Below, in pieces: positions 46,024 to 53,234 of a DNA stretch of 64,000 nucleotides (the stretch's first letter is position 1; the number at the start of each line of letters is the position of its first letter). The position numbers and the translations under genes were made by a program. The stretch spans positions 332,229 to 396,228 of the forward strand of contig NZ_JACHHP010000003.1 in assembly GCF_014202825.1 (NCBI RefSeq), in the 5' to 3' direction. The DNA is from Chiayiivirga flava (GTDB taxonomy: Bacteria; Pseudomonadota; Gammaproteobacteria; Xanthomonadales; Xanthomonadaceae). The notes beneath the pieces were generated by a model, which worked only from the letters and a program-made list of their open reading frames with translations, did no database searches and was not told the origin of the DNA.

Positions 46024-47931
46024 ATGCGCCGATTCGCTGTCCCCGCTGCCCTTGTCCTCTGCGTGTGCGCGGCGATTCCGCCGCTGGCTGCGGCGCAACC
46101 GCGCGCCGACGCCGTGGCCGATGCGTCGACGCACGGCACCCTCGTGCTGCGTCCCAATGCCGACGTGCTGCGCGGGCTCGGCATCGAACTGGCGGGCGGA
46201 CTGGTCCAGGGCGACACCCGGCGATTCGGCATTGCGCCGCGCGCGCCGTTGACGGTCGAGTTGCGCGACGGCGGACCGACCGCCGTCGGCGACACGCCGA
46301 TCGCGCTGCCGGCGCTGGTGCTGCGACGCGCCGACGGCGTGCGTTCGCCGCCGCTGTCGCTGCGTTCCGCCGACGGCGGCGTGCGGCGCTGGCGTGTCGT
46401 CGACGACGCGGGCGCGGTCTGGCTGCGCATCACCCAGGCCATGCGTTCGCCCGATGGCGCCAGCGCGTTGTCGCTGCTGACATCGGACATGCGGGTCGGC
46501 CCGGCGCTGGCGGCGTGGGCGGGCGACGTTGCTGCCGCCGGCCTGCCGTTCGCGAATGCGGAGCTGCATCTGCCGCTGCGCCTGCGCGCTGCCGACAAGA
46601 GCGAGGCGGCCGGCAAGTCGTGCACGGTGCCGAACTGGCCCGGCACCCCGGGGTTCGTCACCGACGTGATCCTCACCAACATCGACGACATCGACGTCAT
46701 GCGCTGCCGCAACCTGTCCGACGCGGACGAGCCTTGCGATGGCCCCGGCGGCGCGCCGGGCGAGCTCGTCGTCGTGCCGTCGGTGACGCTGCGCAACAGC
46801 AGCGCCGCGAACGCGAGCGAGGTGCCGTGGTACACCAAGTTCACCGGCAATTTCCCGCCGTACGACAACGACCAGCACCCGTTCCTGGTGTGGAACCTGT
46901 ATCGCCTCGACGCCGAAGGCCGCATCGACCAGATCGCGCGTTCCGGCCTCAAGCATGCCTTCGCGACGGCCAACGACGCGTGTGTCGAGCCGTGCAACAA
47001 CCAGCACATCCTCGGCCGCGGCTGCGAGGACCTGTACAACTCCTTCAGCAACGACGCCAATGCGTTCCTGTCGCCGCGGCGCGAGGTGATTCCGTCGCGC
47101 GGCATCTGGGGTCGCTGCGGCTCGGTGTTCGACGATGGCCTCGATGCGCTCGGCGTCGGCACACCGGGTTGCGATTCGGCGCAGGACGCCGCGCCCGCCA
47201 ACGACGGCTACCGCGAACGCATGGTGGTACGCGAGTCCGACCTCGACCCCGCATTGCACGCCGGTGCCGAGTATCTCGTCGACAGCTGGTACGTGGTGCG
47301 CGACGACATCGACCTGTTCAACACGATGGGATCGCGCGCGCTGGTACCGGTATGGTTCGGCACGCGTTGGGACTTGAGCGGCTCGCCGCCGGCCTACACC
47401 CAGGGCAGCGTGCTCGATCGCTGGCTCGAGCGTGCGCCGGCCGGGGTCGTGCGCCAGCGCCGGCTGATCGAGACCGCCGAAGGGCGCGTGCTCGTCGCGG
47501 TGCGTGTCCACCGCAACGCCGAAGCGCGGTACGTGTACGACTACGCGATCATGAACTACGACCTCACGCGGCCGATCACCAGCGGCGCCGAACCCGACCT
47601 GCAGGTGCTGCGCAACCACGGGCTCGCGCAGATCACGCTGGCGCTGCTGCACGGCGCCACGGTCGACGTGCACGACTACCGCGACGGCGATGCGTCGGCC
47701 GCCAACGACTGGCCCGGCACCGTCGGCGCCGATGCCGTCGCGTGGGAAGCACCGGACGCGCAGGCCTACCTCGAATGGGGCAGCCTCGTGACGCTGCGCC
47801 TGGAAAGCGCGGCCGCGCCCGGCCCCGGCCTGCTGCAGCTCGCGATGGCCGAAGCCGGCATGCCGGCATTCCAGACCGCGTCGGTGCTGGTGCCCGATGC
47901 ATCGCAGCTGTTCCGCGACGGCTTCGACTGA
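46024..47931 (+). CDS. Large secreted protein with KHAF/ILGRGC core and DGFD tail (paralogue A)
   Basis: 635-residue exported protein, no named family recognised. Signal peptide 1-25 (ending PLAAAQ). The mature part holds a core shared with the protein at 50208: YDNDQHPFLVWNLYRLD from Tyr280, KHAF at 310-313, a Cys320/Cys324 pair, ILGRGCEDLY at 329-338, IWGRCGS at 361-367, SWYVVRDDIDLFNTM and YDYAIMNYDL. Conserved His, Cys and Asp residues could bind a metal or form disulfides. The C-terminus is LFRDGFD. Unlike its paralogue it lacks C-terminal repeats. ATG 46024 opens the signal peptide. It is 178 bases after clpA and 214 before the cytochrome. Confidence 0.8.
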   Translation: MRRFAVPAALVLCVCAAIPPLAAAQPRADAVADASTHGTLVLRPNADVLRGLGIELAGGLVQGDTRRFGIAPRAPLTVELRDGGPTAVGDTPIALPALVLRRADGVRSPPLSLRSADGGVRRWRVVDDAGAVWLRITQAMRSPDGASALSLLTSDMRVGPALAAWAGDVAAAGLPFANAELHLPLRLRAADKSEAAGKSCTVPNWPGTPGFVTDVILTNIDDIDVMRCRNLSDADEPCDGPGGAPGELVVVPSVTLRNSSAANASEVPWYTKFTGNFPPYDNDQHPFLVWNLYRLDAEGRIDQIARSGLKHAFATANDACVEPCNNQHILGRGCEDLYNSFSNDANAFLSPRREVIPSRGIWGRCGSVFDDGLDALGVGTPGCDSAQDAAPANDGYRERMVVRESDLDPALHAGAEYLVDSWYVVRDDIDLFNTMGSRALVPVWFGTRWDLSGSPPAYTQGSVLDRWLERAPAGVVRQRRLIETAEGRVLVAVRVHRNAEARYVYDYAIMNYDLTRPITSGAEPDLQVLRNHGLAQITLALLHGATVDVHDYRDGDASAANDWPGTVGADAVAWEAPDAQAYLEWGSLVTLRLESAAAPGPGLLQLAMAEAGMPAFQTASVLVPDASQLFRDGFD

Positions 47932-48145
47932 AGCGCGCGCCCGGACAATGCAAACCGCACGGACAGTACGCCGCCGTGTGGAGCGATGAGCGTCCCGTGT
48001 TGCCGCGCCCCCTGCGTCGGCCGGGTTTTTTCGCTTAGACTTGACGACGGACCGCTGCATACGGTCCGGGAACGTGCCAGGGAGCAACGCCTCCGACAGG
48101 TGCGATATCTGCCGCCGACGCGCGGCACGACCGGGGAGAGGACGG

Positions 48146-53200: not shown

Positions 53201-53234
53201 GCAGGTGATGCCGTTCGTCGACGGCTTCGAGTGA
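50208..53234 (+). CDS. Large secreted protein with KHAF/ILGRGC core, four Cys-pair repeats and DGFE tail (paralogue B)
   Basis: 1008-residue exported protein (signal peptide 1-19, ending VVAQG). It shares with the protein at 46024 the core GNDQHPYLIWNLYRID (from 317), KHAF (346-349), ILGRGCGDTY (365-374), WGRCGS (398-403), SWYIVRDDIDIYNTM and YDYAVMNFDYAHAV. After residue 658 come four beta-domain repeats of about 82 residues (659, 746, 831, 914), each opening VGG.(V/L)SGL, with two cysteines near the end (CTVDNGSGTI..., then VTC). The C-terminus is PFVDGFE. ATG 50208 is used because it opens the signal peptide; the frame is open further upstream. Function unknown. Confidence 0.82.
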   Translation: MKKLLVLLVSALVAGPVVAQGTTAAQGIGSADPAAAIAPSGTWKVWGGEIAFAWNFDLMRDLGIEIAAPKAMLDEGVDRMQRFALRDATGIDFAVKNGNFEGFVRGSLAMSGGYDLQIGKQTISLRDARLAVREDNPFQLDLVAADGRVWFYVDRLMYGLNRAGNTLDVQAMDLRVSGALADLLDDPGSEGMPVAGLRMQSYVVRGGFAGVTKGFGCGSSSKWPGDPVPGAPGQSYRADVFMNGFSMSYSRKDAQANGPGGTDGLVVYTPSSTLRNNNANGSATATIPGDPLGTSSSIWAADVPWRQKFSSNCEPYGNDQHPYLIWNLYRIDALGRIEQVGRSGVKHAFLTINVGCSENPGDGHILGRGCGDTYGTGNNDSQGDLGPRRELLPATGVWGRCGSIYDGNCNGSSDDFNGYSNFDHRLKVRESKIDPGEAANAGATYRFESWYIVRDDIDIYNTMQTRTATFAWNAGANRWDVGNGNPLTLGPAIDRWVAPGTADPNQRNTELVIGKARSKVAVKVTDLGGGTFRYDYAVMNFDYAHAVTEGSEPNLRVLSSDGFTAFSLPVSAALDVTDIEFSDGDTDSANDWTLVDEPNRITWTAPADNRLNWGTLFRFSITANAAPIEAPARLANAQVAPVQTFDALSLVPQSEAVQTFAVGGALSGLAPGGSISLRLNSGTPLVLDEDGAFAFANEVIEAGAYEVSIVTQPATQTCTVDNGSGTIAGADVTDVLVTCVDLPPPTYTVGGSVSGLGGGRTVSLQLDGGETLSDVANGPFGFTTLLGSGETYSVTVSDVPADRVCEVQNGSGTIDDADVVNVLVQCTAVPSYRIGGTVSGLDGSVGLQLNGGETIQRSVDGAFFFAGEVQSGQPYSVAITSEPAGQRCSVENGTGTVAGSDVTDIAVVCSARSTHTVGGTLSGLPAGRSIALRLNGGPALVLSSSPTFTFAQTLFDGAEYAVTISSAPAGLECTVENATGIIEGANVTDVAVTCREPGQVMPFVDGFE
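52182..53209 (+). repeat. Four tandem ~250-bp coding repeats (Cys-pair beta domains)
   Basis: Four consecutive segments of paralogue B starting at 52182, 52443, 52698 and 52947 encode related domains of 80-84 residues. Common pattern: GG, SGL, a run ending LRLN or LQLNGG, an aromatic FxF, YxVxI, then C.V.N..G.I..A.VTDV.V.C. The two cysteines per unit are spaced about 20 residues and probably form one disulfide each. DNA identity is moderate, so the duplications are old. Confidence 0.85.

Follow-up and report, generated by a model that had tools for sequence, protein, structure and literature searches.

What do two exported proteins of one family do on either side of an exported cytochrome with five heme-binding motifs? 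The question is raised by a 64-kb stretch of the Chiayiivirga flava genome (the window, in which positions count from its first nucleotide), where three open reading frames (ORFs) follow one another on the plus strand:

46024-47931, plus strand: lysyl-oxidase-like (LOX-like) secreted paralogue 1; ATG start at 46024, with an alternative in-frame GTG upstream at 45979
48041-50116, plus strand: pentaheme cytochrome c; the frame starts with TTG, the likely start is GTG at 48146
50208-53234, plus strand: LOX-like secreted paralogue 2 (ORF call and BLASTP)

Sec-type signal sequences, judged by eye, start all three proteins. The paralogues share 33% identity over 639 columns (BLASTP, E 4e-98) and keep, in the same order, the motifs quoted in an earlier note on this DNA, so the layout described there (two exported paralogues around an exported five-CxxCH protein, all in one direction) was borne out. 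Gene linkage and co-occurrence showed that the module is conserved. Tentatively, we read it as an exported module in which a quinone-type amine oxidation may be coupled to a multiheme cytochrome. The firmest findings concern the conserved linkage, the family of the cytochrome and the homology of A4, a second partner found in relatives.

Conservation of the gene linkage

Among 200 genomes sampled from the order, the paralogue family was present in 94 (weak matches and a short subfamily included), a close homologue of the cytochrome (E <=1e-100) in 50, rising to 64 at E 1e-20, and A4 in 31. The close cytochrome was accompanied by the paralogue family in 49 of its 50 genomes (Fisher p 3.5e-19), and A4 by the cytochrome in 30 of 31 (Fisher p 3e-21), genomes being treated as independent in both tests. 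The E 1e-100 cut-off dropped 14 of the 64 cytochrome genomes, which had weaker matches; when these were restored, the paralogue family was found in 55 of the 64. The genome lists and coordinates were compiled by hand.

Linkage was scored at a distance of 5 kb around 61 cytochrome copies. A paralogue-family gene lay within it at 20 copies, on the same strand in 18, and an A4 gene at 34, on the same strand in all 34; neither partner was that close at the remaining 20, at least three of which start at a contig end. Paralogue places were entered only for cytochrome genomes, leaving out partial pieces, a broken copy (G150) and a short-subfamily hit (G015), and one A4 place (G026) is a short fragment. 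Counted from the paralogue genes, an ORF with at least four CxxCH motifs was present within 10 kb on either side in 39 of 78 loci (77 named records and the window, some pieces being short contigs). The core shared by the paralogues is therefore not a rare neighbour of cytochrome genes, in view of these 39 loci and of the 49 close-cytochrome genomes that have the family. Genes at related loci were called with a crude script, and names such as dapE, clpA and lipoprotein were given by eye. Clusters with several copies were seen in Dokdonella fugitiva (L106, L139), Tahibacter harae (L124) and T. aquaticus (L144).

Because of this linkage, the undescribed extracytoplasmic redox system proposed in the earlier note is the best reading of the locus, whereas the function of such a system can only be suggested. 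Across the phylum sample, the paralogue family was found in three of 299 genomes and the cytochrome (E 1e-20) in five, two of them close. No family member was found on plasmids, and neither a LOX nor a family member on viral contigs.

A copper-amine-oxidase-like family beside the cytochrome in relatives

Profile comparison placed A4 as a remote relative of the copper amine oxidases (PF01179; TynA): against ten of these enzymes, hhalign gave a probability of 95.9 and E 5e-9 over 299 columns. The HxH pair (H211, H213) and the tyrosine position of the topaquinone (TPQ) site were invariant in 18 of 18 members. Where copper amine oxidases have the motif N-Y-D/E, A4 has Trp instead of Asn before the Tyr in all 18. 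A conserved histidine, H291 (18 of 18), could replace the third copper ligand. A4 is exported, as judged by eye, and was not found in the window's own genome. Weak matches to the same motif fell below the cut-off, in Pfam for one of three members (0.013) and in NCBIfam for one of two (0.014, 0.053), and a PDB sequence search with A4 returned only an antibody chain (E 0.05). PF01179 itself was found in none of 61 order genomes at E 1e-10 (the control was positive in one), and the window paralogues gave no match to copper amine oxidase (score 20.9 over 24 columns).

A gene for a protein of about 210 residues, in which a lipobox was recognized by eye, often lies between the cytochrome and A4 (for example L097:5518-6144, cluster 6); two members of this lipoprotein-like family examined in Pfam had no match.

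Family of the pentaheme cytochrome

The following features of the cytochrome were used in the comparison:

48347-48361, plus strand: heme motif 1, CASCH
48512-48526, plus strand: heme motif 2, CLRCH
48686-48700, plus strand: heme motif 3, CQFCH
48920-48934, plus strand: heme motif 4, CGSCH
49145-49159, plus strand: heme motif 5, CQDCH
49370-50113, plus strand: C-terminal beta domain with GHKLPTG, in which His412 is invariant (model and alignment)

Each of the five motifs was conserved in 48 of 48 aligned homologues, as were H220, H344 and H412. The C-terminal region, described in the earlier note as heme-free and beta, contains no CxxCH and is beta-rich in the predicted model (pLDDT 85.3). This protein is related to pentaheme cytochrome c552 from Thermochromatium tepidum. 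Structural superimposition of the model with the c552 crystal (5ze8) gave Z 21.5 over 347 residues at 23% identity, the next entry standing at Z 11.1; Foldseek gave E 1.6e-12 and the sequence profile E 1.9e-7. Both proteins have an N-terminal heme domain with five CxxCH motifs and an overall fold that continues into a beta domain with H-x-x-PTG. They differ in length as compared (385 residues in c552, 631 here) and in the further conserved cysteines of the present protein. The link to amine-oxidase-like genes was seen here, and no search for such a link was made in T. tepidum; our literature search found no paper on the function of the T. tepidum protein.

The C-terminal beta domain also resembles that of the ExtKL/MccSep multiheme (seleno)cytochromes (NF040886, E 5.5e-6; 9wt8, E 0.02), from which the protein is set apart by an NF040886 match far under the curated cut-off (25.2 versus 250 bits). 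A weak profile match (E 3e-4) was obtained to 2rf7, listed as a cytochrome c-552, which we take to be NrfA.

More distant cytochrome relatives with longer frames (about 815-995 residues) are encoded by G042, G049, G056, G107, G122, G132 and G147, which belong to family f7 of the order; no LOX-like family member was found in these genomes. In Pseudofulvimonas gallinarii, a divergent five-CxxCH protein (L152:11537-13306), 24% identical to the window cytochrome, lies between a LOX-like gene and a close cytochrome homologue.

Lysyl oxidase likeness of the paralogue core

Lysyl oxidases are oxygen-using, copper-dependent enzymes that cross-link substrates such as collagen. The regions of the paralogues that were compared with them are these (residue numbers of paralogue 1, such as H260, K285 and Y313, count from position 46099):

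46114-46587, plus strand: N-terminal beta domain of paralogue 1, with weak resemblance to the HtaA fold (VIA-align Z 9.6, 141 aligned residues, 8% identity)
46651-47406, plus strand: LOX-like core of paralogue 1, model residues 185-436 (VIA-align to LOXL2; hhalign)
46867-46881, plus strand: NDQHP motif, about at the place of the LOX HxHxH, with one conserved His (H260)
46951-46962, plus strand: KHAF; K285 falls at the place of the LOX quinone lysine (K320 in human LOX; hhalign)
47023-47037, plus strand: C-x-D-x-Y; Y313 falls at the place of the LOX quinone tyrosine (Y355 in human LOX; hhalign)
51168-51170, plus strand: conserved His of NDQHP in paralogue 2
51243-51254, plus strand: KHAF of paralogue 2, quinone-lysine position
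51315-51329, plus strand: C-x-D-x-Y of paralogue 2, quinone-tyrosine position

The core had been called rich in invariant His, Cys and Asp, and the alignment agreed: ten positions (H260, K285, C295, C309, D311, Y313, E329, C340, D345 and C358) were kept in 72 of 72 family members, and H286 in 71. Across 97 aligned superfamily sequences, K285, N292, C309, D311 and Y313 were kept in every one. The signature K..F-x6-C...C.D.Y was present in 66 of 98 family ORFs and in none of the 901 other ORFs at the same loci. The paralogues had no Pfam or NCBIfam match above cut-off in any member tested, and a PDB sequence search with their profile gave no matches except to PRP3, which is unrelated (E 0.11 and 0.64).

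The predicted model of paralogue 1 (pLDDT 92.7) was aligned by VIA-align, as a second look, to the chains ranked highest by Foldseek. Human LOXL2 (5ze3, residues 545-749) superimposed with Z 9.5 and a root-mean-square deviation of 3.7 over 166 residues at 12% identity, and it was the sole row ranged within the core among the 50 VIA-align matches listed; two others begin at residues 274 and 284 and extend into the C-terminal domain. The C-terminal part aligned with many beta-sandwich domains, including YcnI at a weak Z of 9.5. Integrins, pilins and adhesins, at very low TM scores, made up most of the Foldseek matches listed for paralogue 1. The likeness of the N-terminal domain to HtaA, a heme-binding domain, is close to background.

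When the family profile was compared with six lysyl oxidases by hhalign, K285, C295, C309, D311 and Y313 fell on human LOX K320, C330, C351, D353 and Y355. The score, 28.2 with 97 diverse superfamily sequences, was reached by none of 100 column-permuted decoys (mean 15.3, maximum 26.1), and the reversed profile scored 17.3. In human LOX, according to PMC4448552, K320 and Y355 form the quinone cofactor. C295 and C309 of the family correspond to LOXL2 Cys663 and Cys685, which Table 1 of PMC9180022 gives as a disulfide of the LOXL2 crystal structure. The family and two animal LOX sequences, which are likewise exported proteins, have in common K-x-x-F, C-x-D-x-Y and a Cys at the tenth residue past the Lys.

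The core, for which the earlier note had recognized no named function, can thus be redescribed: it resembles the LOX catalytic domain and has the quinone Lys and Tyr positions, without the copper triad. With this triad missing, it is lysyl-oxidase-like and is not classed as a lysyl oxidase. The LOX-like assignment is probable, and the fold and the superposition of Lys and Tyr are supported, not proven. The likeness to lysyl oxidases (PF01186; LOX, LOXL2, bacterial and archaeal LOX) lies in the predicted fold of about 166 core residues and in the places of the quinone residues; the family differs in lacking HxHxH and a PF01186 match and in having extra N- and C-terminal beta domains. The gene link to a cytochrome also sets it apart, no multiheme link having been found for LOX in the literature (a search that lay outside most subscription journals).

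A shorter subfamily of about 400-500 residues, with the motif HPVIAQN..SWLKHGF..GCTDPYG, also has this core with its Lys and Tyr, apparently without the N-terminal beta domain (L173:7505-8938; similar in L167, L168, L169, L170, L171, L172 and L174). At L172, a five-CxxCH ORF lies about 3 kb from the shorter-subfamily gene on the opposite strand.

Proposed amine oxidation and the evidence against it

The invariant Lys and Tyr of both paralogues would probably form a cofactor of the lysyl-tyrosylquinone type. A LOX-like protein could then convert an amine and its quinone to an aldehyde and the aminoquinol, the substrates being primary amines, either free or on lysines of surface proteins. The pentaheme cytochrome, as its linkage suggests, would reoxidise the aminoquinol and pass the electrons to the respiratory chain or outwards, so that the pair would act as an amine dehydrogenase and not as an oxygen-consuming oxidase. 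In relatives, A4 occupies the place of the paralogues beside the cytochrome. The coupling of amine oxidation to the cytochrome is favored mainly because two unrelated amine-oxidation folds, both of the type with a tyrosine-derived quinone and both with an altered metal site, share one cytochrome partner, an argument that comes from the relatives. We infer the quinone, the metal, the amine substrate and the direction of electron flow.

A bolder form of the proposal, which we consider unlikely, is a new class of quinohemoprotein amine dehydrogenases: exported enzymes of the LOX-like and copper-amine-oxidase-like kinds, their metal sites rebuilt, would carry tyrosine-derived quinones, made by themselves or by the cytochrome, and would deliver electrons to a dedicated pentaheme cytochrome, the two unrelated folds having been wired to this one respiratory carrier independently. 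A literature search, with most subscription journals outside its reach, found nothing joining amine dehydrogenases, multiheme cytochromes and copper amine oxidases.

If amine oxidation does take place here, a LOX-like fold would serve as a dehydrogenase in exported proteins that retain the quinone residues but not the copper triad, a role would be suggested for T. tepidum-type pentaheme cytochromes, and one could test how such quinones arise where the standard copper site is missing. The family is widespread in the order, at the count given above with weak matches included, and its tested members are without a Pfam or NCBIfam match above cut-off. PMC6452851 describes the functions of prokaryotic LOX as "enigmatic", and the native function in the host as "cryptic".

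Several observations weigh against the amine oxidation reading. The first group concerns the metal. The LOX copper triad HxHxH is not kept, the aligned stretch having one His in 66 of 72 members and two in six; A4 has no conserved third copper His, the aligned place being R, H or T (11, 4 and 3 of 18); and quinone formation in both known families, LOX and copper amine oxidase, is known to need copper. The core could still work like LOX, perhaps by way of H260, H286 or other ligands. PF01186 matched none of the 72 members and none of five further ones, whereas the LOX of Streptomyces and Gemmatirosa do match it. In 101 order and 249 phylum genomes no PF01186 match was found; as the control genomes were negative too, this does not establish absence.

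The second group concerns the fold and the cysteines. The Z of 9.5 for LOXL2 is slightly above the Z 7-8 typical of models without a clear match, LOXL2 was not among the best 50 Foldseek matches listed for paralogue 1, and hhalign gave the LOX match a probability of only 5.7-5.9% with E 0.0064-0.0067, as one comparison. Both cysteines were missing from the four bacterial lysyl oxidases compared, and the native LOX pairing given in Table 1 of PMC9180022 is Cys324-Cys330 and Cys351-Cys361. Because bacterial LOX lack the cysteines and native LOX pairs them differently, the likeness to animal LOX may be convergence.

The third group concerns distribution. The paralogue family occurred without a close cytochrome in 45 of its 94 genomes. 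Among 26 genomes picked because their loci have no adjacent cytochrome, 20 had none even at E 1e-20, Rubrivivax and Luteimonas included. Bracketing of the cytochrome by the paralogues does not hold as a rule, given these 45 genomes and A4 as the commoner neighbor.

Alternative explanations

The paralogues might be LOX-fold proteins without enzymatic activity, exported for binding or as matrix components and possibly handling heme or copper, with the Lys/Tyr and Cys pairs serving a structural role and the cytochrome working independently, for example on delivered metal or heme. We regard this as somewhat unlikely. It would agree with the missing triad, with the frequent occurrence of the family without a close cytochrome, with the weak fold matches to HtaA (N-terminal) and YcnI (C-terminal), and with the many adhesins and pilins among the other structural matches. 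The invariance of K285 and Y313 throughout the superfamily is, however, unexpected for a mere scaffold, and a second, unrelated amine-oxidase-like family occupies the same place beside the cytochrome. An isopeptide-bonded, pilin-like adhesin was rejected except within this explanation.

A less probable arrangement, which we rate as improbable, is that the cytochrome is itself the enzyme, a reductase, which its weak likeness to a c-552 of the nitrite reductase type would permit, or that it matures the flanking proteins by oxidising some of their residues, in the way that the diheme enzyme MauG acts on methylamine dehydrogenase. Maturation by the cytochrome would explain how a quinone could form without the standard copper site. 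The near-constant presence of the LOX-like family in close-cytochrome genomes, the altered copper sites of both partner families and the weak profile similarity to 2rf7 and to MccSep, a multiheme selenoprotein, are consistent with it. Against it stand the Lys/Tyr pair kept by members in genomes without a close cytochrome, the putative nature of the modified residue in the partner proteins, and the T. tepidum homologue, for which no function was found in the literature.

That history alone made the genes neighbors, with LOX-like genes linked to clpA and a cytochrome operon unrelated to them meeting at one spot, is very unlikely: the relatives nearest to paralogue 1 (L081, L082, L083 and L085; two of these loci, L083 and L085, are short contigs, while L082 comes from a genome that has the cytochrome elsewhere) do have the clpA-linked gene without an adjoining cytochrome, but adjacency recurs next to different flanking genes in several genera, nearby pairs mostly share a strand, the co-occurrence is strong (with the relatedness of genomes ignored), and the tree does not suggest one recent inherited event, the adjacency label needing at least nine changes on well-supported branches.

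Gene calls, C-terminal tag and repeats

The three genes sit between clpA (43566-45845) and a gene named epimerase/dehydrogenase-like by eye. In the cytochrome gene, GTG at 48146, just before the signal peptide, is a more plausible start than TTG at 48041. The genome search found paralogues 1 and 2 to be the only family members in this 4.07 Mb genome. A tree of 72 members joined paralogue 1, with support, to L081, L082, L083, L085 and a single L086 gene. Paralogue 2 was placed in another supported group, which has four genes and also includes Aquimonas genes (L116, L130) and L133; all four genes of the latter group adjoin a cytochrome. Because the two fall in separate supported groups, they do not stem from a recent duplication. 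A promoter scan of the locus gave no promoters, and terminator-like sites numbered five versus 3.3 expected; both were uninformative.

Further features of the paralogues are as follows:

46024-46098, plus strand: signal peptide of paralogue 1 (MRRF..LAAAQP, by eye)
47911-47931, plus strand: C-terminal tag of paralogue 1, FRDGFD-stop (genome pattern search)
53214-53234, plus strand: C-terminal tag of paralogue 2, FVDGFE-stop (genome pattern search)
52179-53213, plus strand: four degenerate repeats of about 80 residues each in the C-terminal extension of paralogue 2 (by eye)

The tag pattern F-x-(D/N)-G-F-(E/D)-stop was found at 24 genome sites (L197-L220), against none for a reversed control pattern, and it also terminates many LOX-like and A4 members of relatives. 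It may be an undescribed sorting signal. A signal-like start was flagged by a crude script in seven of the 24 tagged frames, of which 18 run off the examined stretch, and some matches, such as L220, may be due to chance; a literature search on the tag returned nothing to the point. Because the paralogues have the tag and the cytochrome does not, one may speculate that the paralogues are placed at the surface and the cytochrome in the periplasm.

The repeats of paralogue 2, with the pattern YTVGGxVSGL..CxVxNGSGTI..GADVT.V.V.C, were not found as DNA tandem repeats. At the DNA level, sequences related to them are present on two contigs of this genome, C1 and C4, with many matches spread over about 3 kb of C4.

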